From Syntrophotalea acetylenivorans (GTDB taxonomy: Bacteria > Desulfobacterota > Desulfuromonadia > Desulfuromonadales > Syntrophotaleaceae), in the NCBI RefSeq assembly GCF_001887775.1, contig NZ_CP015519.1:2728001-2792000 (forward strand): a DNA stretch of 64,000 nucleotides, written 5' to 3'. The notes below the pieces were generated by a model. That model was not told where the DNA came from. It worked only from the letters and a program-made list of their open reading frames with translations, and ran no database searches. This document shows, piece by piece, positions 8,410-39,428 of the stretch. A program made the translations under genes and the position numbers. The stretch's first letter is position 1, and each line of letters starts with the position of its first letter.

Positions 8410-8822
8410 GGGGGCCTTGCTTCCTTTTTGGATTTTGTCGGGAATAGCAAGTATGCAGGAAGGCCAGAGGGGCAGGCTTCCAAGACGCTAAGTTCAGGCA
8501 TTCAGGCTTCCCTATGTGCCAGGATAGTTGTCCCAAAACCCGAAACACCTTTTCAGCCATATTGATCTTGACCTTCGCCGGTGGGTGTCAAATCACGACT
8601 TCTCAGGCACCGAAATGGCCTACCCTGAAAACAGGGTGGCCGATCTCATTTTGCGGCAGCTATAAGAACCTGAAAATGCTCCTTGAAACATCCAATAGAA
8701 CGGGCTAACGTGTCCTTGGCTGTGTATGCACACAGGCCTGCTGACGCGACCCCTAGGGATTGGCCTCAGGAGCCGCTTTTTATGTCCGAAATTCTTGAGT
8801 AAGAGGTAACTGCAAAATTAAT
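8410..8822. other. 413-bp stretch without a convincing gene
   Basis: Contains a 64-codon frame (8514-8708) whose N-terminus looks weakly like a lipoprotein leader (LILTFAGGC) but has no RBS. It could be a decayed member of the neighbouring small-lipoprotein cluster. The final part is the leader of the membrane protein at 8823. No RNA gene or terminator was identified. Confidence 0.4.
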
Positions 8823-9038
8823 ATGAAAAATTTACTCAGCTACCCGCTCCTCATTCCCTTGGCCTTGTTTCTCGGATTGGCACCTGTGCATCCACAGCCC
8901 CATCTAGTCGAGAAGCTGGGAATGCTGATGGAGGGTGCTCTAAAGAAGCCTATCGATATTTTCGACCTGGCTTGGCATACATGGCCCTTTGCACTTCTGA
9001 TTGTTCGGTTAGGAAAGGATGCAAAGAGAACCAAGTAA
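8823..9038 (+). CDS. small inner-membrane protein, unknown function
   Basis: 71-aa protein with two predicted membrane segments: PLLIPLALFLGLAPV near the N-terminus and HTWPFALLIVRLG near the C-terminus. They flank the amphipathic stretch PHLVEKLGMLMEGALKKPID. The pattern P.PHL.EKL.ML..G.L..PIDIFDL..H is typical of a short proteobacterial family sometimes labelled RND transporter in databases, a label not justified by its size. A terminator at 9084 closes the unit. Confidence 0.78.
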   Translation: MKNLLSYPLLIPLALFLGLAPVHPQPHLVEKLGMLMEGALKKPIDIFDLAWHTWPFALLIVRLGKDAKRTK

Positions 9039-10844: not shown

Positions 10845-13598
10845 ATGCAGGAACTCTATTGGAAAGTCGATAACCCTTTAGCCCGCCTGGCGGAGTTGAC
10901 CAGCTTTTCCGGTGATTTATGGGAGCGGCCTTTGCGGCGGGATGTACGGTCCCTGGGTAAGTTGCTCGGCACCGTGATTCGCGAGCAGTCCGGCGAGGAG
11001 ATCTACCGGCTGGAAGAGGAGTTGCGCCAAGGCGCCATTGCTCATCGCCGGAGATTGTATCATGCTCAAGGGGATGCCGGCATCTGGCAGGACGATCCCC
11101 AGTTGCAGGTGGCGGTGGAATTGATTCGCGGGTTGTCGCTGACCGACGCCGGGCAGATCGTCAAGGCCTTCTCGACCTTTTTTGAATTGGTCAACCTGGC
11201 GGAAACCCAGCATCGCAAGCGCAGACTGAGGGCGGTGCGGCTGGCAGCGGAGGCGGAGGACAAGCCTGGTTCGCTGCGCGGCACTTTGGTTCGCCTGCGC
11301 GATAAGGGCTTCAGCGCCGAGCAGGTTTTTGAGGGCTTGCGCCACATCGAAGTGATGCCGGTGTTCACCGCTCACCCGACCGAGGTGGCTCGACGGGTGA
11401 CCCGAACCAAACGCCAGCGCATCGCCGGGGCTCTGGAGCAGCTCAACCGGCCGCTGCTGTTCGATGCCGAGGCGGCCCGTCATCAACAGGCGATTTTGTG
11501 CGAGATTACCGCGCTGTGGCAGACCGAAGAGATTCGCAGCCACAACCCAACAGTAGAAAACGAAATCGATATGGGGCTCGACCCCTATGCCCCTTATCTG
11601 ATCCCCGCCCTGGACGATTTCTACCCTGATCTGGCGGCGGCTTTGGACGAGGTCTTTGAGTCCCGTGTTGCACCCGGCGAAATGTCGCCGGTGGTCCGCT
11701 TCGGTTCCTGGATCGGCGGCGATCGGGATGGCAATCCGAAGGTGAGCCCGGAATCGACGGAAACGGCGTTGATAAAAGCCCGCCATGTGATTCTCGACAG
11801 TTACCTGAAGGATGTGGCGCAACTTAAGGAGTTGCTTACTCCGTCCGGTTGCCGAGTGCCCACCAGCCCGGCCTTTCGCCAGGTTCTGCAGGGGTATCGG
11901 CAGACCCTGCCTGCCGCCGCCGAGGCCATGGCCGCCTTTCCTGAATGCGAGCTCTATCGCCAGTTTTTAGCGGCCGTCGGTTACCGTCTGGCCTGTTGCC
12001 GGCACTCGCCGCAGTCGGCCGAGGGCTATCGCTCCGCCGCTGAGTTCGAAACAGATTTGCGCCTGTTGCGGGACAGCCTGGAGCATCACCGCGCCCGGCG
12101 CCTGGTCTGCGAGTACCTCGATCCCTTGTTGCGCAAGGTGTCCACCTGTGGTTTCCACTTGCAGGTACTCGATATCCGCCAGCATGCGCGGCTGCACGAA
12201 GAGGCCGAAGCCGCCCTGGCTCGGGGACTATGTGATGATCAGTCGGTGGTCACGGTGATGGAAACTTTGCGGGGGGTGGCGCAGTTGAAACGGCTGCATG
12301 CTCCGCAGGCCATCAGCCGCTATGTGATCAGTGGTACGAGTTGTGCCGAGGACATGAAACGCTGGCTACGGCTGGCGGAGCGAGCCGGAGTGCGGGTGGC
12401 GGCGGATGAAAAAAGAGGTGATCCGGGGCTGATGCCGGTGCCCTTGTTCGAGTCCATTGACGATCTGCGCCATGGGGCGAGCATCTGTCGCGAGCTGTGG
12501 AGCTCCGCTGACTACGGGGCGCTGCTCGATTCCTGGGGCCGCAGTCAGGAGGTTATGCTCGGATATTCCGATTCCAACAAAGACGGCGGCATGTTTACCA
12601 GTACTTGGGAAATTCACAAGGCGCAACGGGCTCTGCAGCAAGCCGCACGGGAGTGCAACATCCACCTGCGTCTGTTCCACGGCCGGGGGGGTACCGTCGG
12701 CCGTGGTGGCGGTCCCACCCATCGCGCGATCCTCAGCCAGCCAGGGGACGGTTTCTCCGGAGCGTTGAAGATCACCGAGCAGGGGGAAGTTATTAACTGG
12801 AAGTACGCTGATGTCGAGCTGGCACGGCGCACCTTTGAGCTGACCGTGGCCGCCAGCCTGGAGAGTTTGCTGTGCCCCGAGTACGGCGACACGACCGCCC
12901 AACCTCGCTGGGAGGAGGCTCTGGAGGAGATGTCCGCCAGTGCTCTGGACTTCTACCGCGCGCATATCGCCGATAACCCCGATCTGGTGGGCTATTTCGA
13001 ACAGGCGACGCCGGTGCTTGAATTTGAACTGGCTAAGATCGGTTCGCGACCGGCGCGGCGTAAGACGGCCGGTGGTTTAGAGGATTTGCGTGCGATTCCC
13101 TGGGGCTTCGGCTGGATACAGAGCCGCCATGTGCTGCCCGGCTGGTTCGGCGTCGGTCAGGCGCTGACCGCCTTTGCCGACAAGGGGCTGCAGGCTCGGC
13201 GGCTGCTCTGCGAGATGATGGAGGACTGTCCTTTCTTCGCCGACCTGATTCGCAACGTAGAGTTGGCTTTGACCAAGGTCGATCTGCCTATCGCGCGGCG
13301 CTATGCCGAACTGGTCGGCGATGCGGCGTTGCGGGAGCGCTTCTTTGGCCTGGTGGTTGCCGAGCACCAGCGGACCCTGGCGTCAGTGCTCGAGGTCACC
13401 GGCCAGAGTCGCCTGATGGAACATCAACCGAGCCTGGCCCGGTCCCTGCGTCTGCGCACTCCTTACGTTGATCCCTTGAGCCTGATGCAGATCGAGTTGT
13501 TGCGGCGCAAGCGGGCCGGGGAAGAGAGCAGTGAACTCAACTACCTGTTGGCCGCCACCATTCATGGCATCGCCGCCGGGCTGCGCAATACCGGTTGA
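10845..13598 (+). CDS. ppc: phosphoenolpyruvate carboxylase
   Basis: Carboxylates PEP to oxaloacetate, an anaplerotic step. Full-length, 917 aa from ATG 10845; the in-frame TTG at 10824 has no RBS. Signature residues are catalytic His177 in VFTAHPTEVARR, the GYSDSNKDGG motif, the Arg/Gly loop FHGRGGTVGRGGGPTHRAIL, and the invariant C-terminus ending LRNTG. It is a single-gene unit, convergent with the small minus-strand gene 15 bp downstream. Confidence 0.97.
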   Translation: MQELYWKVDNPLARLAELTSFSGDLWERPLRRDVRSLGKLLGTVIREQSGEEIYRLEEELRQGAIAHRRRLYHAQGDAGIWQDDPQLQVAVELIRGLSLTDAGQIVKAFSTFFELVNLAETQHRKRRLRAVRLAAEAEDKPGSLRGTLVRLRDKGFSAEQVFEGLRHIEVMPVFTAHPTEVARRVTRTKRQRIAGALEQLNRPLLFDAEAARHQQAILCEITALWQTEEIRSHNPTVENEIDMGLDPYAPYLIPALDDFYPDLAAALDEVFESRVAPGEMSPVVRFGSWIGGDRDGNPKVSPESTETALIKARHVILDSYLKDVAQLKELLTPSGCRVPTSPAFRQVLQGYRQTLPAAAEAMAAFPECELYRQFLAAVGYRLACCRHSPQSAEGYRSAAEFETDLRLLRDSLEHHRARRLVCEYLDPLLRKVSTCGFHLQVLDIRQHARLHEEAEAALARGLCDDQSVVTVMETLRGVAQLKRLHAPQAISRYVISGTSCAEDMKRWLRLAERAGVRVAADEKRGDPGLMPVPLFESIDDLRHGASICRELWSSADYGALLDSWGRSQEVMLGYSDSNKDGGMFTSTWEIHKAQRALQQAARECNIHLRLFHGRGGTVGRGGGPTHRAILSQPGDGFSGALKITEQGEVINWKYADVELARRTFELTVAASLESLLCPEYGDTTAQPRWEEALEEMSASALDFYRAHIADNPDLVGYFEQATPVLEFELAKIGSRPARRKTAGGLEDLRAIPWGFGWIQSRHVLPGWFGVGQALTAFADKGLQARRLLCEMMEDCPFFADLIRNVELALTKVDLPIARRYAELVGDAALRERFFGLVVAEHQRTLASVLEVTGQSRLMEHQPSLARSLRLRTPYVDPLSLMQIELLRRKRAGEESSELNYLLAATIHGIAAGLRNTG

Positions 13599-13613
13599 AT
13601 AGAGGGCAGGGGT

Positions 13614-13781
13614 TTATTCATTCTCCTCTTCCGCAAAGTCTTCATCGAAAAAAGTCTCAAGAAAGCGCTGGTTAGCGCGAAGTTGCCGGGCTATACCCAG
13701 GCGTAATTTTTCGAATTCATCGATCGGTTCCACATCTGATTGTTCTTGTTCTGTTTCTGGCGGTTGAGCTGGTTCAGTCAC
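13614..13781 (-). CDS. small acidic protein, paralogue of the glgA-linked gene at 18187
   Basis: About 55 aa from GTG 13781. Its C-terminal half, EFEKLRLGIARQLRANQRF, then an acidic tail, aligns with ELERLCRDIERQIRSNQRF of the gene after glgA at 18187-18339. It overlaps the 3' end of a decayed glgA copy, mirroring the arrangement at 18.3 kb. The upstream coding remnant is broken, but this small frame stays open. Function unknown; translational coupling to glycogen synthase suggests a role beside it (inference). Confidence 0.6.
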   Translation of the reverse strand: MTEPAQPPETEQEQSDVEPIDEFEKLRLGIARQLRANQRFLETFFDEDFAEEENE

Positions 13782-13985
13782 CTTTACCCTCCTGAGCTCG
13801 TTGATAAATCTCCACATAGCGGCCGGCCGACTGTTCCAAAGAAAAGTATCCACTCACATGGCCCGTTGCATCAGACACGTCCAGTCGTCGTGGTTTTGAA
13901 AGCGTTTCAGGGCCCGATCCAGGATTTTTATGAGGGCCTTGACCGCCGGGGTCTCGGCGCTGTAGGGGATGCAGGGCGGGACAAT
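13774..13985 (-). pseudogene. glgA (glycogen synthase) 3' remnant with internal deletion
   Basis: The minus strand encodes LEQSAGRYVEIYQRAQEGKG then stop, matching the C-terminus WEQSAGRYVEIYQRAQECKG of the intact glgA at 18344. Nucleotide similarity runs through about 13774-13952. At about 13953-13981 the sequence TCGGCGCTGTAGGGGATGCA resembles an internal glgA segment at about 18978-19008. About 450 bp are therefore deleted between the two homologous blocks, and the reading frame is also broken. This is the relic of a second glgA copy. Confidence 0.8.
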
Positions 13986-13996
13986 CAAAAAAAATC

Positions 13997-14025
13997 TTGC
14001 TATATCCGAAAAACCGGATTAAGCT
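13997..14025 (+). promoter_or_regulatory. arsR promoter with ArsR-type operator
   Basis: TTGCTA at 13997-14002 and TAAGCT at 14020-14025 are spaced 17 bp. The spacer holds ATCCG-N6-CGGAT (14004-14019). The same operator, in the same position between -35 and -10, lies in front of gapdh-arsJ at 39400-39428. With this -10, transcription would start at about the A of ATG 14032. Confidence 0.7.
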
Positions 14026-14031
14026 TTGCCT

Positions 14032-14370
14032 ATGCAAGCAACCACGGAAATATTCAAAGCCCTGGCCCACCAGACACGATTGCAGATCCTTTGCTTGTTG
14101 TTCGACGGCGAGGTGTGCGTCTGTAAACTCATGGCGATTCTCGATCTACCGCAATCAACGGCCTCCCGGCATCTTGCGATCCTGAAAAATGCCGGGCTGG
14201 TAGAAGACCGTCGTGACGGCACCTGGTCTCACTATTCCCTGGCCAGTGAGAGCAGCCTATTGGCCGACAGCTTGCTGAAGGTGCTTCAAGAGTATCTGCC
14301 GGCCACCGTGGAAGGAGCGACCTACCGCCAACGCCTCTCGGAGGCTCTGCACAAAGAAAAGTACGTTTGA
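14032..14370 (+). CDS. arsR: ArsR-family arsenic-responsive repressor
   Basis: Winged-helix metalloregulator of 112 aa. The alpha-3 metal site reads FDGEVCVCKLMAILDLPQS, with the Cys-Val-Cys pair used by As(III)/Sb(III)-sensing ArsR proteins. The recognition helix follows as QSTASRHLAILKNAGLVEDR and the wing is RRDGTWSHYSL. There is no RBS before ATG 14032 or TTG 14026; the predicted promoter would give a leaderless mRNA. Autoregulation is supported by the operator at 14004. A second operator follows the stop codon at 14388. Confidence 0.92.
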   Translation: MQATTEIFKALAHQTRLQILCLLFDGEVCVCKLMAILDLPQSTASRHLAILKNAGLVEDRRDGTWSHYSLASESSLLADSLLKVLQEYLPATVEGATYRQRLSEALHKEKYV

Positions 14371-14387
14371 GTTTTTTTTTAGAATAT

Positions 14388-14403
14388 ATCCGAATTTACG
14401 GAT
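14388..14403. promoter_or_regulatory. second ArsR-type operator, downstream of arsR
   Basis: ATCCG-AATTTA-CGGAT, the same half-sites and 6-bp spacing as at 14004 and 39405. No clear -35/-10 pair frames it. It may control the Fe-S/permease/thioredoxin operon, whose first ATG is 553 bp downstream, or a lost gene. Confidence 0.6.
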
Positions 14404-14955
14404 GCATGCCTTTTGGGCTGATAGCCTGTATAGCTAATTCCAGGAGCGTGAAAACGAACAAAAAGATTTTGCAGGTGATTGCTAGAGAATACCGTTGTTT
14501 TTCCATGGGTTAAGCGGAAACAAGCCAAGAGGGAAGTAACCTGGTCGATAACGAAAAGGCTGTGAACGTAAAAAGCGCGAAGCTGATAGCTGTGGGGGTA
14601 GCAGTAGCCACGTGCTGCATTCCCAGCCTCGAATGCCAGATCAATGCGGTCGGGGAGCAGGGGCAAGCCCAATAGAACTTGATACAGCTGTCAAAATAAG
14701 AAAAACGATACTTCAAGCGCCTATGGAGAATATAGATTAAAAGTGTGAACAACTAGGTACTTGAGGGGTGTCGCATCCAAGGTAAGGGTAAACCTGTTTT
14801 GCTGCGACGGTATTCCTCTGGATTTTTTCGCCAGAGAAAGTTCAGAGCAATACAAATCCCTTTGGGTAAGAGAAAGTCCTTTTCGTGCAAGCGAATTACT
14901 GAAGTGATACAGGCCCCTAGGCATGAACTACGTTTAGCAAAAGGAAGGTGACCCA
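14404..14955. other. 552-bp stretch without a recognisable gene
   Basis: Frames of 60-97 codons exist on the minus strand (for example 14379-14672), but none has an RBS or a recognisable motif, and they overlap each other. The block lies between arsR with its second operator and the Fe-S gene, so it may be a decayed gene of the arsenic locus or a long leader. No terminator was seen. Confidence 0.4.
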
Positions 14956-16359
14956 ATGGATGCACCGGACAAACGGAAAGAACCGACGCCGCAGGAACTG
15001 TTACGGGATGTACTGACTCTCTGTGCTGACTGCGACACCTGCCGTACCATGATGGAAGAGGACTGCGCCTTTTTCATCGAGCTCTACCGTCTGCAAGATC
15101 AGGAACGGGAAGACGGGGTACCGATCAGCGAGGAGCAGTTTCGCTACCTGGCTGAGCTCTGCACCTTTTGCGGCCTGTGCCCCTGCCCCAAGGTGCCGAT
15201 GGACGTGATGGAGGCCAAGAGCCGTTATATCGAGAAGGAAGGCATGCCATTGGCGACCCGCCTGCTCAACGATGTACCGCTGATGGCCCGACTGTGCGGC
15301 ACCTTTCCCAAACTGACCCAGGCCCTGCAGTCAAATCGACTTAGCGGATCGCTGCTTCGAAAGGCGACCCGCCTGCACCCCGACCGGCAGCTCCCCACCT
15401 TCCCCAAAGACAATTTTTTCTCCTGGGCGGCCAAGCGTGGTCTGGACCGGCCGCAGAAAGGGGAGCACCGGGTCGCCTATTTCGCCGGCTGCACCGCCGG
15501 CTACCTGTTTCCTGCCATAGCTCGCAGCGTGGTGGAGATTCTGCAGCACCACGACGCCACGGTCTACGTACCGCCCCAGCAGTGCTGCGGCATGCCCTTT
15601 CTGGTGGAGGGAGGCCGTAAGCGCACCCTGAAACTGAGTCAGGCTAACATGGAAAACCTGCTCGGAACATTGGAGGATGGTCACGATCTGGTCTATTCCT
15701 GCCCCACCTGCGGCTTCTTCCTCAAGAGCCTGCTCAAGGAACGAGCTTACTATTCGGACACCTACCAGCAGTCGGTCGATGCAAAGGAAGGGCAAATAAA
15801 GGTTCCCGCTCCGGAAAAAGGCGAAAATCAGTTCTGGACTCTGCACAAGATCATGTACCGGCATATCCTCAAAGACGACGGCTACTTCTCCTCCCTCGAC
15901 CCTCTGGCCCGGGTCAAGCTTTCCGAAAATCTGCTCGATTTTGCACTCTATCTGACCCGCATGCAGACCGAAGGCCGGCTTAAGACCGACTTCCAGCCTT
16001 TGCCCGAGCGCATGGTCTATTTTGCTCCCTGTCATCTGCGTGAGAAGAAAATAGGTCGCCCCTACCTTGATCTGCTAAAACTGGTTCCGCAGCTGGATAT
16101 CGGGGAGGTAGGTAGCGACTACGACTGCTGCGGCATGGGTGGGGTGTTCGGTTTCAAGGAGCACTTTCACCAGAAGTCCCTCGACCTGGGTGGACCGCTG
16201 ATGGACAAGATCCGCGCCCAGGACCCCCAGGCCATTGTCACCGACTGCATGAGCTGCCGGCTGCAGTTCAACCACTGCCTGCCCTATCCGGTGTACCATC
16301 CGGTGGAGGTGCTGGCCCGGGCCTATGGCGTGGCGCTAATGGAAGAGGGCGGCAGGTAG
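14956..16359 (+). CDS. (Fe-S)-binding CCG-domain protein (GlpC/HdrD-like)
   Basis: 467-aa cytoplasmic iron-sulfur protein. Two ferredoxin-type clusters are near the N-terminus: CADCDTCRTMMEEDC at about residues 23-37 and CTFCGLCPCPKVP at about 71-83. Two cysteine-rich CCG domains follow, one with QCCGMPF and CPTCG, the other with APCHL, DCCGMGG and CMSC. This is the architecture of GlpC and HdrD, which pass electrons between quinones or thiols and partner proteins. No flavin subunit is adjacent. It heads an operon with a permease and mini-thioredoxin; electron delivery to an arsenic-related reduction is an inference. RBS AAGGAAGG. Confidence 0.88.
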   Translation: MDAPDKRKEPTPQELLRDVLTLCADCDTCRTMMEEDCAFFIELYRLQDQEREDGVPISEEQFRYLAELCTFCGLCPCPKVPMDVMEAKSRYIEKEGMPLATRLLNDVPLMARLCGTFPKLTQALQSNRLSGSLLRKATRLHPDRQLPTFPKDNFFSWAAKRGLDRPQKGEHRVAYFAGCTAGYLFPAIARSVVEILQHHDATVYVPPQQCCGMPFLVEGGRKRTLKLSQANMENLLGTLEDGHDLVYSCPTCGFFLKSLLKERAYYSDTYQQSVDAKEGQIKVPAPEKGENQFWTLHKIMYRHILKDDGYFSSLDPLARVKLSENLLDFALYLTRMQTEGRLKTDFQPLPERMVYFAPCHLREKKIGRPYLDLLKLVPQLDIGEVGSDYDCCGMGGVFGFKEHFHQKSLDLGGPLMDKIRAQDPQAIVTDCMSCRLQFNHCLPYPVYHPVEVLARAYGVALMEEGGR

Positions 16360-16439
16360 CGAGATTTTCTGTCGGCCATTCCGTGCCGGCTGTCGTCCCG
16401 CGCATTGAACTTGATGATCCTTCAAACAAGGAAACTGCT

Positions 16440-17752
16440 ATGAACTGGAAAAAGGAATGGAAAGCGCTGGCGGTGATCGTAGCCGGTTTTCTGCTTTGTT
16501 ACTACCTGCCGGTTGACTGGCTTAAGAGTCTCGAGCGCCTGCAGAACGCTCTCTGGGAGTCCCTCTACCTGGTCAAATGGTACGCCCGCGAACATGTGCT
16601 GTTGTGTCTGGTGCCGGCGTTTTTTATCGCCGGGGCGGTGGGGGTGTTCATCAGCCAAGCCTCGGTGATGAAGTACCTCGGCGCCAGGGCCAACAAGGTG
16701 CTGGCTTACGGGGTGGCCGCGGTTTCGGGTTCGGTACTAGCGGTGTGCTCCTGCACCATTCTGCCCCTGTTCGCCGGCATCTATCGCATGGGAGCGGGGC
16801 TCGGACCGGCCTGTGCCTTTCTTTACTCGGGACCGGCCATCAACATCCTGGCCATCGTTCTCACTGCCCGGGTCCTCGGGCCAGAGATCGGCATTGCCCG
16901 CGCCATTGGCGCGGTTCTATTCAGCATTGTCATCGGCCTTTGCATGCACTTCTTTTTCCGCAAGGAGGAATTGGAGAAGATCGATGCCCAGGGTATGATG
17001 CCTGAACCGGAAGTGTCCCGCCCCTTATGGCAAAACGCCGGCTATTTTGCCGCTATGGTTGGTATCCTGGTATTTGCCAATTGGGGACGCCCTGCCAGCG
17101 ACAGCGGTCTGTGGCACGCCATCTATTTTCACAAATGGGCCATTGCCGGCGGGTTCGCCATCGCCCTAGCGCTGATCCTGATCGGTTGGTTTCGGGTCTG
17201 TTGGTGGAAGATCGCCCTGGTCGGCCTGCCGACCCTGGTTCTGTCCCTGTTGTTGCCGACAATGCCGCAGGTGGCCTTCGTGGTCGGGGTGCTCGGATTG
17301 TCGCTGGTCATCAACACCGAACGGGGCGAAATGCAGGAATGGTTCTCCTCCTCCTGGGGCTTCGCTAAGCAGATCCTGCCGCTGTTGCTGATCGGCGTGG
17401 TGATTGCCGGTGCCCTGCTCGGCCAGCCCGGCTCCGAAGGCCTGATCCCTTCGGCCTGGGTGGCCAATTCGGTGGGCGGCAATTCCCTGGGGCCAACCTG
17501 TTCGCCTCGGTGGCCGGAGCCTTTATGTATTTTGCCACCCTGACCGAAGTGCCGATTCTCGAGGGGCTGCTCGGCGCCGGCATGGGCAAGGGCCCGGCAC
17601 TGGCGTTGCTGCTGGCCGGACCGGCCCTCAGTCTGCCAAATATGCTGGTCATACGCAGCGTCATGGGTACCAAGAAAACCCTGGTGTTTGTTTGTCTGGT
17701 GGTGGCCATGGCAACTATCAGCGGTCTTATTTTCGGCGCCTTCTGGGGCTGA
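16440..17752 (+). CDS. permease (DUF318/ArsP-type), frameshifted
   Basis: Integral membrane permease of the PF03773 type, about 437 aa if the frame is restored. Features include SGSVLAVCSCTILPLFAGIY with the conserved Cys pair, and YSGPAINILA. The frame from ATG 16440 breaks near 17489-17492, where a run of four G should be five. Continuing in the other frame gives the expected NLFASVAGAFMYFATLTEVP and the C-terminus to 17752. As read, translation stops at 17543 after an unrelated tail. Relatives export trivalent organoarsenicals or act in heavy-metal resistance. It lies 80 bp after the Fe-S gene and 60 bp before the thioredoxin. Confidence 0.85.
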
Positions 17753-17812
17753 GCGGCAGGCTGACAAACCTTACTTCAATACTATTGCAAGTGTAAAAGA
17801 AAGGAGAGCGCG

Positions 17813-18046
17813 ATGAAAAAACTTCAGATCCTGGGTACGGGCTGCGCCAAATGCCAGAAACTGGCGGAAAATACTCGCCTGGCCGCCGATGAACTTGGCA
17901 TCGATTACCAGCTGGTGAAGGTGACGGACATCAAGGAGATTGCGACCTTCGGCGTCATGATGACCCCGGCCCTGGCCGTCGACGGCGCGGTCAAGCTGGT
18001 GGGCAAGGTGCCGGAAGCCGGGGAGTTGAAAAAGTACCTGGACTGA
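17813..18046 (+). CDS. mini-thioredoxin (redox-active disulfide protein 2 type)
   Basis: 77-aa thioredoxin-fold protein of the MTH895 type. The active site GTGCAKCQKL (CxxC) sits at the N-terminus, and the cis-Pro loop is VMMTPALAVDG. RBS AAAGGAGAG. These small thioredoxins are often the last gene of arsenic or permease operons like this one. The likely partner is the adjacent permease or Fe-S protein (context inference). The perfect palindromic terminator at 18106 ends the operon. Confidence 0.92.
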   Translation: MKKLQILGTGCAKCQKLAENTRLAADELGIDYQLVKVTDIKEIATFGVMMTPALAVDGAVKLVGKVPEAGELKKYLD

Positions 18047-18105: not shown

Positions 18106-18147
18106 ATAGCAAAGGCCCGCAGGAAATTTCCTGCGGGCCTTTGCTAT
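18106..18147. terminator. 42-bp perfect palindrome, bidirectional terminator
   Basis: ATAGCAAAGGCCCGCAGGAA followed by its exact reverse complement (21-bp arms, no spacer). It serves the convergent thioredoxin (+) and glycogen (-) operons. Confidence 0.88.
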
Positions 18148-18186
18148 TTGGCACTTCAAGACTTCAGCGGTTGTTTCAACCGCAGG

Positions 18187-18339
18187 CTATTCTTCCTCGT
18201 CCTCTAAATTCTCGTTCATAAACCCTTCCAGAAAGCGTTGGTTGCTGCGGATCTGCCGCTCGATATCGCGGCACAACCGCTCAAGTTCGCCCTCCGATTC
18301 CGGTTCCGGGGTTGCCACGTTCAATTTTTCGTCTGACAT
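18187..18339 (-). CDS. small acidic glgA-linked protein, unknown function
   Basis: 50 aa from ATG 18339, four bases after the glgA stop codon, with AAAGGTGAG at the end of glgA as RBS. It has an acidic N-terminus, a helix ELERLCRDIERQIRSNQRFL, then an EE-rich tail. A paralogue follows the glgA remnant at 13614. The tight coupling to glycogen synthase and its persistence next to a dead glgA suggest a partner protein. No known family recognised. Confidence 0.7.
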   Translation of the reverse strand: MSDEKLNVATPEPESEGELERLCRDIERQIRSNQRFLEGFMNENLEDEEE

Positions 18340-18343
18340 TGAC

Positions 18344-19795
18344 TCACTCACCTTTACACTCCTGAGCTCGTTGATAAATCTCCACATAGCGGCCGGCCGA
18401 CTGTTCCCAGGAAAAGTCCTCGGCCATGGCCCGCTGTACCAGACACGCCCAATCATCATGGTCATGGTAGCGTTTAAGGGCCCGATTGAGGGTTTTTATG
18501 AGGGCCTTGGCGGTCGGGGCCGTGAAGACAAAGCCATTGCCTAGCGGGTTTTTGTCGACATCGGATACCGTGTCGGCCAGGCCGCCGGTACGTCGCACCA
18601 GAGGGATAGCACCATAACGCAGGGCGATGAGCTGGCCGAGGCCACAGGGTTCGTAATGGCTTGGCATTAAGAACAGGTCGCTGCCGGCGTAGATGCGTCG
18701 GGCCAATGAGTCATCAAAACTCAAGGTAATGGAGACCAGTTCCGGGTGTTTGTCTTGTAAGCGACGGAAGAAGGCCATATGTTTTTCCTCGCCGTCGCCG
18801 AGCAGGACGAATTGCAGGGGGCGGCGAATCAGTTGAGGCCAGGCCGCTTCTAGAATATCCAGGCCTTTCTGGGTGGCGAGGCGGGTGACCATGGCCACTA
18901 TCGGCAGGTGGCTGTCCCGTGCCAGTCCCAATCTGTGCTGCAAATCGAGTTTATTTTGTATCTTGGCCTTCGGATTTTCGGCGCTGTACGGGGTATGCAA
19001 GGCGGCATCGGTGGCCGGGTTCCACTGTTGGCAATCGATCCCGTTAAGGATGCCGATCAGCTCCTTGCGTCGTTTATGAAGAATGCCTTCGAAGCCGTGA
19101 CCGAATTCAGGGGTTTGAATCTCCCGACAGTAACTGGGAGAAACGGTGGTGACCAGGTCGGAGAAGAACAGCCCCCCTTTGAGGAAGGAAAGCTGGCCGT
19201 AATATTCCAGTCCTTCCATGTGAAAAAGGCCCGGGTCGAGACCGATCTCGGTCAGGGCTTCCGGGGGAAACAGTCCCTGATAGCCGAGGTTGTGAATGGT
19301 CATCACGGTGCCGGTGCGGGTGTAAAAAGGGTCGGCCGCCCGTTCACTGTGCAACAGCACTGGAATCAACCCCGTTTGCCAGTCGTTGAGGTGCAGCACG
19401 TCGGGGCGAAAGTCGAGTTGCGGCAGGGCTTCGAGCACCGCTCGACAAAAGAGCCCGAAACGCTGGGCGTTGTCTGGATAGTCGCCAGCGGCTGTGCCGT
19501 ATAATCCCTGACGCTGAAAGAATTCGGGATAGTCGAGAAAATAGACAGGAACTTCCCCAAGCCGCCCCAGGTAAATACCGACGCTGCGGAGGGCACCGGC
19601 GATCTCCACTTCAACAGTCACTTCGAGTCGTTTGGTGACGAAGGGTTTTTCGCTGATGCTACGGTAATAGGGCATACAGATTCGAACGTCGTGGCCGAGA
19701 TGAGCCAGGGCTTGCGGCAAGGCGCCGGCGACATCAGCCAGCCCACCGGTTTTGGCAAAGGGAGTCACTTCGGAAGCGACAAGCAGAATGTTCAT
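18344..19795 (-). CDS. glgA: glycogen (starch) synthase, GT5
   Basis: Transfers glucose from ADP- or UDP-glucose to alpha-1,4-glucan. 483 aa, full length. The N-terminus MNILLVASEVTPFAKTGGLA contains the KTGGL sugar-nucleotide loop. The C-terminal Rossmann domain holds LATQKGLDILEAA and PSHYEPCGLGQLIALRYGAI with the catalytic Glu. RBS GTGAGGT precedes ATG 19795. It is the sixth gene of the minus-strand glycogen operon, 35 bp after the GH13 gene. A degraded second copy lies at 13.8 kb. Confidence 0.97.
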   Translation of the reverse strand: MNILLVASEVTPFAKTGGLADVAGALPQALAHLGHDVRICMPYYRSISEKPFVTKRLEVTVEVEIAGALRSVGIYLGRLGEVPVYFLDYPEFFQRQGLYGTAAGDYPDNAQRFGLFCRAVLEALPQLDFRPDVLHLNDWQTGLIPVLLHSERAADPFYTRTGTVMTIHNLGYQGLFPPEALTEIGLDPGLFHMEGLEYYGQLSFLKGGLFFSDLVTTVSPSYCREIQTPEFGHGFEGILHKRRKELIGILNGIDCQQWNPATDAALHTPYSAENPKAKIQNKLDLQHRLGLARDSHLPIVAMVTRLATQKGLDILEAAWPQLIRRPLQFVLLGDGEEKHMAFFRRLQDKHPELVSITLSFDDSLARRIYAGSDLFLMPSHYEPCGLGQLIALRYGAIPLVRRTGGLADTVSDVDKNPLGNGFVFTAPTAKALIKTLNRALKRYHDHDDWACLVQRAMAEDFSWEQSAGRYVEIYQRAQECKGE

Positions 19796-37093: not shown

Positions 37094-38317
37094 TTATCCG
37101 GTTTGGGATGATCTCAATCTTCGCGGCAGTGCCAGGGATAATAGACCGGCGGTAAAAACCAGGGCTACGGAAGCCCACAGGCAACCGGGCAGACCACCGA
37201 TTTGGTAGAGTAATCCGGAAAGCAAGGTGCCGAGCAGGCGCCCGGCGGCGTTGGCCATGTAGTAGAAACCGACATTGAGGGCAACCTGGTCCCTTTCGGT
37301 GTAGGCCAGAATGAGATAGCTGTGGACCGAAGAATTGACGGCGAATACCAGACCGAAAAGGGCCAGTCCGGCCACCACCGTCAACCAGGGGGAAAGGTCA
37401 GCCTGCACTCCCAAGGATATCAGGGCGGTAAGCGCCGCCAGGGAAAAGGCCCCCGCTGCTGCCGTGCCTCCCTGTGGTGTGCCGCCAGCCAGACCGCGTC
37501 GCAGCAGGTGAGGGGCAAAGGCCTGCACGCCACCGTAGCCGATCACCCACAGGGCAAGAAAACCGCCGACCTGGGTATGGCTCCAGCCGAGGTTAGCGGC
37601 GAAAAAGAGTGGTAACCCAACTACAAACCAGACGTCCCGCGAGCCGAAGAGAAACAGACGGGCCGCAGAAAGCAGATTGATGTTGCGGCTTTTCGCAAAG
37701 ATGTGGAAAAATTTCACTTTTGTCTTGGCACGGCCTATGTCTTTTGGCAGGGCAAGGATCGCTGCCAACAGCACCAGCGCCAGAGCGGCGGCCATGGCCA
37801 GCAACGAAGCGCGAAAGCCGAGCCAGCTCAGCAACACCCCGCCGAGAAAGAAGCCGGCTCCCTTAAGGGCGTTTTTTGAACCAGTCAAAATAGCAACCCA
37901 CTTGAACAGGGTGCTTTCTTCGCCTTCCGGCAGCAGAACCTTGATGGCGCTTTTGGAGCTCATTTTAGTCAGGTCTTTGGCGACGCCTGACAGGGCCTGG
38001 GCAGTCATCACATAGGCCACCGAAAGGGCTGCCGGCCAGTCAGGCTGCAGCCCGGCAAGGGCCGAGAGAGCCACGACCTGCAAGGCCAGACCGGAAAAAA
38101 GGGTGACCTTCAGCCCAAAATGGATGCCGATCCAGCCGCCTACCAGGTTGGTGACCACCCCGCAGAGCTCGTAGAGCAGAAACAGCAGGGCGATTTGCAT
38201 GGCGCTGTAACCCAGAGCATGGAAGTGCAGCAGCACCAACATGCGCAAAGCGCCATCAGTAAGGGTGAACCCCCAATAGGCACCCGTTACCAAACTATAG
38301 TTGCGGAGGGCCGTCAT
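37094..38317 (-). CDS. arsJ: ArsJ, MFS exporter of 1-arseno-3-phosphoglycerate
   Basis: 407-aa, about 12-TM major facilitator protein. The N-terminus [20 protein letters not shown] is the ArsJ signature, followed by [18 protein letters not shown] and [16 protein letters not shown]. In characterised systems (Pseudomonas), a dedicated GAPDH makes 1-arseno-3-phosphoglycerate and ArsJ exports it, giving arsenate resistance. That GAPDH is directly upstream here, overlapping by four bases (ATGA). Its promoter at 39400 carries the ArsR-type operator. Confidence 0.93.
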
Positions 38318-39324
38318 TTTAATGTGTTGGCCACCTTGCGGCACAGCTCCATCATGCGGTGGGCGTAGCCCATTTCATTATCGTACCAGATGTAGAGTTT
38401 GAGTTGCGTGTCGTTGACCACCATGGTGCTCAGAGCGTCGACGATGGCCGAACGGGGGTCGCTTTTAAAGTCGATGGAGACCAGGGGGCGATACTCGATG
38501 CCGAGAATCCCTTTCAGGTAAGAGTCCGCCGCGTCTTGAAACAGATCATTGACCTCTTCGGCGGTGACCGGTCGCTGCATTTCGAAGACGGCGTCGGTGA
38601 TCGATCCGGTGAGCAGCGGGACGCGCACTGCATGACCATTCAGTTTGCCTTTTAGTTCAGGATAAATATAGGTTATGGCGGTGGCCGATCCGGTGCTGGT
38701 AGGGATCAGGGACATGCTCGCAGCCCGCGCTCGGCGAAGATCTTTGTGGGGGGCGTCAACCACGATCTGGGTGTTGGTCATGTCATGAATGGTGGTAATG
38801 ACGCCGTGACTTATACCGACCTGCTCATGCAGCACCTTGACCACCGGTGCCAGACAGTTGGTGGTGCAAGAGGCGGCGGTGAGCAGATGGTGTTGTTGCG
38901 GGTCGTAAAGATGGTCGTTGACGCCCATGACGATATTCAACGCTCCTTCTTTGACCGGCGCTGCAACGATGACTTTCTGTGCGCCTTTGTCGAAGTAGGG
39001 CTGCAGCAGTTGCGGGGTGCGGAACTGACCCGACGATTCGATAACCACATCGACTCCGTAGTCGGCCCAGGGGACCTCGCCGGGGGTCGACTTTTCGCTG
39101 AAGCTGATGGGCTGACCGTCGATGCACAGCCCATTGTCGGTGACATCTATCTCATGCGGCCAGCGGCCATGTACCGAATCGAATTCCAGCAGGTGAGCGG
39201 CTGCTTCGGCGCCACCGGCAATTTCGTTGATATGGACGATTTCCAACTCGGGCCAGTCCCAGGCCGCGCGCAGGGCCAGCCGACCCATGCGGCCAAAGCC
39301 GTTAATGCCGATGCGAATGCTCAT
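38314..39324 (-). CDS. ArsJ-associated glyceraldehyde-3-phosphate dehydrogenase
   Basis: 336-aa GAPDH. NAD-binding start [20 protein letters not shown], catalytic Cys in [14 protein letters not shown] with His in HDMTNTQ, and C-terminal [15 protein letters not shown]. The CysTTNCLAP motif and overlap with arsJ identify it as the arsenate-linked GAPDH that forms 1-arseno-3-phosphoglycerate rather than the main glycolytic enzyme. RBS AGGAGAA. The ArsR-like operator upstream supports arsenic-inducible expression. Confidence 0.94.
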
Positions 39325-39399: not shown

Positions 39400-39428
39400 A
39401 ATTTATCCGCGTAAGCGGATATTGTCAA
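39400..39428 (-). promoter_or_regulatory. gapdh-arsJ promoter with ArsR-type operator in the spacer
   Basis: On the minus strand, TTGACA (39428-39423), a 17-bp spacer and TAAATT (39405-39400). The operator TATCCGC-GTAA-GCGGATA occupies 39404-39421, i.e. the ATCCG-N6-CGGAT pattern found twice around arsR at 14 kb. Repressor bound here would block RNA polymerase directly. Confidence 0.82.

Follow-up and report, generated by a model that had tools for sequence, protein, structure and literature searches.

Iron-sulfur (Fe-S) proteins of the CCG type exchange electrons with quinones, flavins or disulfides. The gene for one such protein stands in an arsR-led operon of Syntrophotalea acetylenivorans, within the window analysed here (64,000 nucleotides, positions 2,728,001-2,792,000 of a one-contig genome of 3.22 Mb; positions given below are those of the window unless a locus is named). 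Among the described systems with which this operon may be compared, arsEFG is reportedly known from Shewanella putrefaciens 200 through the work of Chen, Zhang and Rosen in 2019. ArsP permeases of cluster 1 carry the motif Hv(L/I)XClvPAfFIAG and the residues LAV ahead of C(S/T)C, according to PMC4435449, and gapdh-arsJ is a known arsenate-resistance system (PMC6205960). For Fusibacter 3D3, a low-potential ferredoxin has been proposed to serve As(V) reduction (PMC9751042). The available parts of PMC4435449, PMC6205960, PMC9751042, PMC9144182 and PMC13188914 contain no ars operon with an Fe-S CCG protein, and the open-access literature searched yielded none either, in agreement with an earlier note on this DNA which had stated that known ars operons lack such a carrier; most subscription papers lay outside that search, and such a protein may already be in print. 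An ars operon equipped with this kind of redox component is thus one that we could not find reported, the operon being otherwise of a known kind. With a probability of roughly 40%, we propose that it is an ArsR-controlled arsenic-detoxification module in which the conserved Fe-S CCG protein is the electron-supply component.

The module and its conservation

Four genes follow one another in one direction on the + strand, in the order arsR, double-CCG Fe-S protein, ArsP_1 permease and ArsE-family thioredoxin; their identity and position, as given in the earlier note, are borne out by profile matches. The features of the module are the following.

14004 to 14019, no strand: palindrome ATCCG-N6-CGGAT, candidate ArsR operator ahead of arsR (pattern count)
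14026 to 14370, + strand: arsR, ArsR/SmtB repressor with a CVC box, FDGEVCVCKLM (profile matches)
14388 to 14403, no strand: second palindrome ATCCG-N6-CGGAT, in the arsR-CCG gap, candidate operator of the downstream genes (pattern count)
14451 to 14755, extent approximate, + strand: decayed AhpD/carboxymuconolactone-decarboxylase (CMD)-like gene, with stops and a frame change (translated comparison)
14956 to 16359, + strand: double-CCG Fe-S protein of 467 amino acids (two PF02754 stretches, 82.4 bits)
16440 to 17752, + strand: DUF318/ArsP_1 permease with the cluster-1 motif (PF03773)
17813 to 18046, + strand: ArsE/MTH895-family mini-thioredoxin of 77 amino acids, CAKC active site (PF13192, TIGR00412)
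18106 to 18147, no strand: 21-bp perfect inverted repeat 3' of arsE, possible terminator (repeat listing)

Within the GTDB family of the window (14 genomes, with 18 CCG loci examined), the CCG protein, whose family was delimited at E<=1e-90, is present in 13 of the 14 genomes; its wider spread comes to 16/136 genomes of the order, 26/277 of the class and 15/395 of the phylum sample. The CCG gene is preceded by arsR in 12 of the 18 loci and followed by ArsP_1 in 12 (with a small AhpD-like gene in between in L064), while arsE lies close to it in 10. The complete order arsR-CCG-arsP-arsE is found in eight loci (the window, L059, L061, L064, L066, L068, L071 and L072), and L070 holds all four genes in a different order. 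The four genes therefore stand together in 9 of the 18 loci, so that the lack of joint conservation on which the earlier note would have abandoned its proposal was not observed. These tallies allow for a small AhpD-like gene in the arsR-CCG gap (decayed in the window; also in L059, L066 and L068) or in the CCG-arsP gap (L064); in L078 the contig ends inside the locus.

The association with arsenic genes was also assessed in numbers. In 14 genomes, hand-picked after their neighbourhoods had been seen among the 26 of the class that carry the CCG family, ArsP_1 or ACR3 stands within 10 kb at 14 of 17 CCG-family loci and at 0 of the 65 other PF02754 proteins among the matches listed; the Fisher p of 3e-13 is indicative only, because of that choice of genomes and since the PF02754 matches are those listed. 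Taken the other way round, the same comparison shows a CCG-family gene within 10 kb for 12 of the 28 ArsP_1 genes and for 8 of the 12 ACR3 genes that pass their cut-off. A less selected set of 46 dereplicated CCG loci, in which duplicate records were merged and the remote matches L049-L058 left out, has, at a distance of up to 8.5 kb, a labelled arsenic gene in 26 cases, and one other than arsR in 25; the arsenic labels, here as for the palindrome sites and the CCG-free cassettes treated below, come from phmmer comparison with a small number of example proteins and not from curated cut-offs, and the "ArrA" label in L122 and L133 may denote other molybdopterin enzymes. Outside the family of the window, ACR3 lies within 4 kb of the CCG gene in L074, L075, L122, L123, L134, L137 and L141, and in L125 the CCG gene is near ArsC, ArsR and ArsM.

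A palindrome linking the CCG gene to a predicted arsenic regulon

That the CCG gene may respond to arsenic is best supported by the palindrome ATCCG-N6-CGGAT, to which ArsR would bind. It was first spotted inside a direct repeat of the window, where three copies occur against 0.09 expected. Genome-wide the T-led palindrome has five distinct sites, the reversed-pattern control having none, and all five fall at arsenic-related positions: two in each of the two CCG modules of this genome (before arsR and in the arsR-CCG gap) and one before gapdh-arsJ. The latter operon, in which both genes stand side by side and over their cut-offs, comprises:

37094 to 38344, - strand: arsJ, MFS efflux transporter, predicted regulon member (NF033734, 575.2 bits, cut-off 400)
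38314 to 39324, - strand: gene for the ArsJ-associated glyceraldehyde-3-phosphate dehydrogenase (NF033735, 564.2 bits, cut-off 450)
39405 to 39420, no strand: third palindrome of the window, 80 bp upstream of gapdh (pattern count)

Across the 14 genomes of the family, the pattern gives 53 strand matches, versus 7 for its reversed form, and 24 of the 42 distinct sites are at arsenic or CCG genes, a linkage counted by hand which includes the orphan CCG gene of G012. The arsenic-linked sites belong to CCG loci, to gapdh-arsJ (in the genome of the window and in G002, G004 and G008), to ACR3 (G005) and to arsR-ACR3-arsP (G011, G013); at gapdh-arsJ the palindrome precedes or adjoins the genes in L144 of G002, L145 of G004 (with arsR) and L154 of G008. 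An exact copy lies in the arsR-CCG gap in 7 of the 12 family loci that have arsR ahead of the CCG gene, several relatives keep one ahead of arsR at the same place, and the orphan gene of G012 (L069) keeps one 383 bp upstream. An operator-like sequence common to several arsenic genes, as it appears from these positions, supports placing the CCG gene in a predicted ArsR/arsenic regulon together with ACR3 and gapdh-arsJ. The "ArsR operators" of the earlier note can accordingly be named as the candidate palindromes at 14004 and 14388, to which ArsR binding is presumed; their identity had been missed there, as had the decayed AhpD/CMD-like gene and the permease frame change described below.

The repressor itself matches HTH_5 with 68.8 bits and HTH_metalloreg with 101.9 bits (cut-off 55), and has a cysteine-pair metal box in GEVCVCKLM, of the type that presumably binds As(III) in E. 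coli ArsR. Its listed start is the TTG at 14026, the ATG at 14032 being the likelier one. The arsR-CCG gap of 585 bp holds the AhpD/CMD-like remnant (translated score 120, versus 46 for the best of 300 shuffles). The 14388 palindrome was also listed as a hairpin in a promoter and terminator scan whose hits, hairpins included, were no more numerous than in shuffles. The inverted repeat at 18106-18147 was missed by that scan, which leaves its role as a terminator unproven.

The Fe-S protein, permease and thioredoxin

The CCG protein contains 20 cysteines and has the N-terminal motifs CX2CX2CX7C and CX2CX2CXCP (CADCDTCRTMMEEDC and CTFCGLCPCP) followed by two CCG domains. The first motif, CX2CX2CX7C, is found in 41 of 42 long family members and CX2CX2CXC in all 42. 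The four motif groups together hold 18 cysteines, of which 16 are conserved without exception in 24/24 aligned members and the other two nearly so. The same-genome paralogs L004 and L005 each have the canonical CX2CX2CX3CP twice. The protein falls below the cut-off of every one of the eight NCBIfam families listed at E<=0.01. Identity with GlpC, which we take to have two canonical CX2CX2CX3CP motifs, was rejected on scores of 222.5 of 278 and 144.2 of 279.9, and on the lack of those two motifs. HdrB is the best match in a sequence search. The predicted structure (24 sequences, single chain; mean pLDDT 79.9, pTM 0.81) matches the folds of LutA, EtfD and HdrB, with Z scores of 19.9 (231 residues; the LutA entry is an integrative model), 17.9 (353 residues) and 16.1-16.8 (245-248 residues), respectively. 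Two CCG domains, paired-cysteine motifs and a matching fold place it in the CCG-domain superfamily.

A second module of the same genome (L059) has the arrangement ACR3-arsR-AhpD-CCG-arsP-arsE, with an intact AhpD-like gene (L059:7163-7498) at the same place as the decayed copy of the window. Its CCG gene has a frame change near 8820-8830, near the last 50 codons; the two TGA codons in this gene lie out of frame after that change, and a selenocysteine-containing CCG protein was rejected. In a tree from which four short sequences were dropped (L078, L143, L047, L048), the CCG gene of the window is sister to a G006 copy without arsenic neighbours (support 100/99) and that of the second module to a G002 copy (97/99), so the two modules are not recent duplicates of each other.

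For the permease, PF03773 (ArsP_1) gives 164.6 bits for the first part (from 16440 onward) and 73.4 bits for 17510-17749 (cut-off 32.3), scores that predict an arsenic efflux permease, and the cluster-1 motif is found in HVLLCLVPAFFIAG and LAVCSC. As sequenced, the gene is frame-broken: comparison with the intact relative L064 puts the change within a stretch of G at about 17489-17493, where it is either a mutation or a sequencing error. A Cu-Zn efflux identity (SaoE or SO_0444) was rejected, the first part of the permease scoring 74.8 of 325 and 72.9 of 300 against the NCBIfam equivalog cut-offs, which the intact relatives L068 and L029 do not reach either. The mini-thioredoxin matches PF13192 with 89.8 bits and the "MTH895/ArsE family" TIGR00412 with 101.7 bits (cut-off 62). 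The families named in the earlier note thus fared differently: the MTH895-type thioredoxin stands; the ArsP-like permease is right as to family but is not one open frame; and of the "GlpC/HdrD-type double-CCG" protein the double domain was found, while GlpC cut-offs are missed and the N-terminal motifs differ.

No ArsF or ArsG adjoins the ArsE copy of the window. Both follow downstream in 4 of the 18 family loci (L061, L066 and L068 with arsE, L077 without it) and in L048, and the NCBI names of these families refer to nitrophenyl-compound nitro-reduction and aminobenzylarsenical efflux. That ArsM supplies ArsP with its substrate locally was rejected: the NF008823 cut-off is passed in 1 of the 14 family genomes, and the genome of the window has sub-cut-off matches only. 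A sub-cut-off arsenite-methyltransferase-like domain lies at G000:C1:38591-39202, inside an open frame of 1022 amino acids, and similar matches in long frames (897-1065 amino acids) occur in 9 of the 14 genomes, G000 included.

Around the module, the 3' end of glgA and its downstream small open reading frame are duplicated (13592-13951 and 18168-18519); the two copies share 256 of 363 aligned columns, with 95% identity in one 74-nt block. To judge from this arrangement, the module lies as if inserted beside, or replacing part of, a duplicated glgA.

Possible roles and comparison with known systems

In the proposed mechanism, arsenite or a trivalent organoarsenical would release ArsR and the CCG protein would be made. 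In the cytoplasm it would take electrons from an anaerobic donor pool (ferredoxin or menaquinol) and pass them from its N-terminal clusters to those of the CCG domains and on to a thiol partner, which may often be ArsE and sometimes ArsC or another thioredoxin; ArsE is the obvious candidate, because of its closeness to the CCG gene in ten family loci, with ArsF/ArsG next in L061, L066 and L068. The thiol partner would reduce the pentavalent arsenical to its trivalent form, to be exported by ArsP if organic and by ACR3 if inorganic. Where arsF-arsG or CcdA is present, a DsbD-type membrane protein could hand thiol electrons to the periplasm, a relay suggested by the Pfam DsbD_TM matches of the L068 ArsG and of the L122 CcdA-like protein. 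The ArsE family assignment, together with the ArsF/ArsG genes of some relatives, fits reduction before export. A conserved electron-transfer protein in a predicted arsenic regulon of this group would suggest how detoxifying reduction runs in the absence of oxygen; thanks to the palindrome and the cysteine signature, the claim lends itself to tests by ordinary mutants and binding assays. The bolder idea that the protein founds an arsenic-dedicated Fe-S thiol/arsenical reductase family is one we regard as doubtful; such a family would be the anaerobic equivalent of NADPH-thioredoxin reductase, driven by ferredoxin or quinol and powering ArsE, ArsC or ArsF-type reduction, or would reduce the arsenical at its own HdrB-like cluster. 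It would then constitute a component of ars operons so far unrecognised across the Desulfuromonadia.

Several observations speak against a dedicated electron supply for arsenic. In 20 of the 46 dereplicated loci no labelled arsenic gene lies within 8.5 kb (some contigs are short), and 7 of the 46 stand beside molybdenum-cofactor genes at that distance. Three arsR-CCG-arsP loci (L062, L065, L077) are without arsE, which makes ArsE no obligate partner. The arsP-arsE cassettes of G002, G006 and G010 lack both the CCG gene and the palindrome in the stretches examined, so ArsP and ArsE do not need the CCG protein; these cassettes are L168, L169 and L170, with a different ArsR in the last two, and those of G002 and G006 stand under another ArsR. 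The palindrome-bearing arsR-ACR3-arsP loci of G011 and G013 have no CCG gene in the 6 kb examined. Eighteen of the 42 family palindromes are at no labelled arsenic gene and may be background. Each module of the genome has one frame-broken gene, the permease in the window and the CCG gene in L059. The CCG tree shows 13 changes of the arsenic label, about as many as in shuffles (mean 14.1; 183 of 500 are as low), by which a single origin of the arsenic link was rejected and repeated gain and loss appear likely; moreover, the neighbours of the distant members L129-L131 give no arsenic signal, a warning that members at the family threshold need not all be arsenic proteins. The CCG-free cassettes, the loci without arsE and those of G011 and G013 suggest that the CCG protein is an addition to the regulon rather than indispensable to ArsP or ArsE. 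Of the arsenic-linked redox-transport module postulated in the earlier note, what survives is a conserved CCG protein in a predicted ArsR regulon, but not a strict four-gene unit.

Other roles may be envisaged for the protein. It could be the electron partner of a molybdenum/tungsten (Mo/W) enzyme, such as aldehyde ferredoxin oxidoreductase or ArrAB, occurring in arsenic islands as such enzymes do, with arsR-CCG-arsP a later fusion. The seven loci with MobA, MobB, ModE or MoeA labelled within 8.5 kb point this way, as do the aldehyde ferredoxin oxidoreductase gene directly upstream in L136 (by Pfam), its look-alike in L138, and an ArrA fragment about 8 kb from the CCG gene in L135/L038; yet none of the 18 family loci has a labelled molybdenum-cofactor gene at that distance, while arsP so commonly follows, and the recurrent palindrome in the arsR-CCG gap also argues otherwise, which makes this role unlikely. 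In L136, L138, L143, L075 and L134 the CCG gene lies near MobA, MobB, ModE or MoeA genes in varying combinations. Equally to be weighed is a general redox or stress protein acting on another substrate (thiol stress, sulfur, selenium) and merely co-induced with arsenic genes. Rhodanese, MauE/DoxX and DGC-domain genes near the CCG gene in L122, a sulphur-transport gene in L040, and the lack of labelled arsenic neighbours in L060, L063, L069, L073 and L076 would agree with it; membership of the predicted regulon and the 14/17 versus 0/65 contrast among the matches listed argue against it, and even L069 still has its upstream palindrome, so we think it improbable. CcdA and thioredoxin genes accompany the CCG gene in L122 and L123, and ACR3 or ArsC is also present across L122, L123 and L125; these neighbourhoods, from other lineages of the phylum, hint at a possible sulfur or thioarsenic link.

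That the CCG protein is itself an arsenical or arsenic-thiol reductase, its HdrB-like site cluster taking thiol-bound As(V) or an As-thiol disulfide with ArsE or nothing as carrier, appears quite unlikely. HdrB, the disulfide-reducing Fe-S subunit, is its best sequence match and among its best fold matches, L062 has the CCG gene directly with arsP, without arsE and with no arsC labelled nearby, and the N-terminal signature is unlike that of L004 and L005; fold likeness, however, is uninformative on substrate, the other best fold matches LutA and EtfD are electron-transfer proteins, and loci without arsenic context exist. A mere passenger of arsenic islands, devoid of any arsenic role, would be compatible with the mixing of genes in such islands, with the position of the module between two glgA 3' copies, and with its broken permease and decayed AhpD gene, but the gene order is the same in several genera, operator positions recur in relatives, and nearly every genome of the family has the protein, which makes this very improbable. 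We thus retain electron supply within an ArsR-controlled detoxification module as the favoured role.

Known systems compare with the module as follows. In the case of the ferredoxin hypothesis for Fusibacter 3D3, the words GlpC, CCG and heterodisulfide appear 0 times in the main text of PMC9751042. Geobacter sp. OR-1, known for its arsenic islands, carries the CCG gene too (L039, contig BAZF01000002), and in G529 ACR3 lies about 16 kb before the CCG gene and ArsP_1 about 18 kb after it; the description of the islands (PMC4319506) lists unnamed open reading frames and mentions no Fe-S protein there. The complete gapdh-arsJ pair at 37094-39324 has the same palindrome ahead of it, but forms a separate operon some 19-21 kb from the module, with only the predicted operator in common. 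ArsP-type ars operons (Campylobacter-type arsP; PMC4435449) share ArsR and an ArsP_1 permease with a CSC motif, the permease of the window corresponding to cluster 1 and that of L059 to cluster 2; they differ in that no Fe-S protein is described in the part available, and the main text nowhere contains the terms "Fe-S", "iron-sulfur", "thioredoxin" or "ferredoxin". With arsEFG the module shares a thioredoxin of the MTH895/ArsE family, followed in some relatives by ArsF/ArsG, but the window copy has neither beside it and adds the CCG protein and ArsP. Finally, GlpC, LutA, EtfD and HdrB have the double CCG domain and the fold in common with the CCG protein, which differs in carrying CX2CX2CX7C and CX2CX2CXCP instead of two CX2CX2CX3CP motifs, and which in the window has arsR and arsP as neighbours in place of GlpAB or LutBC.

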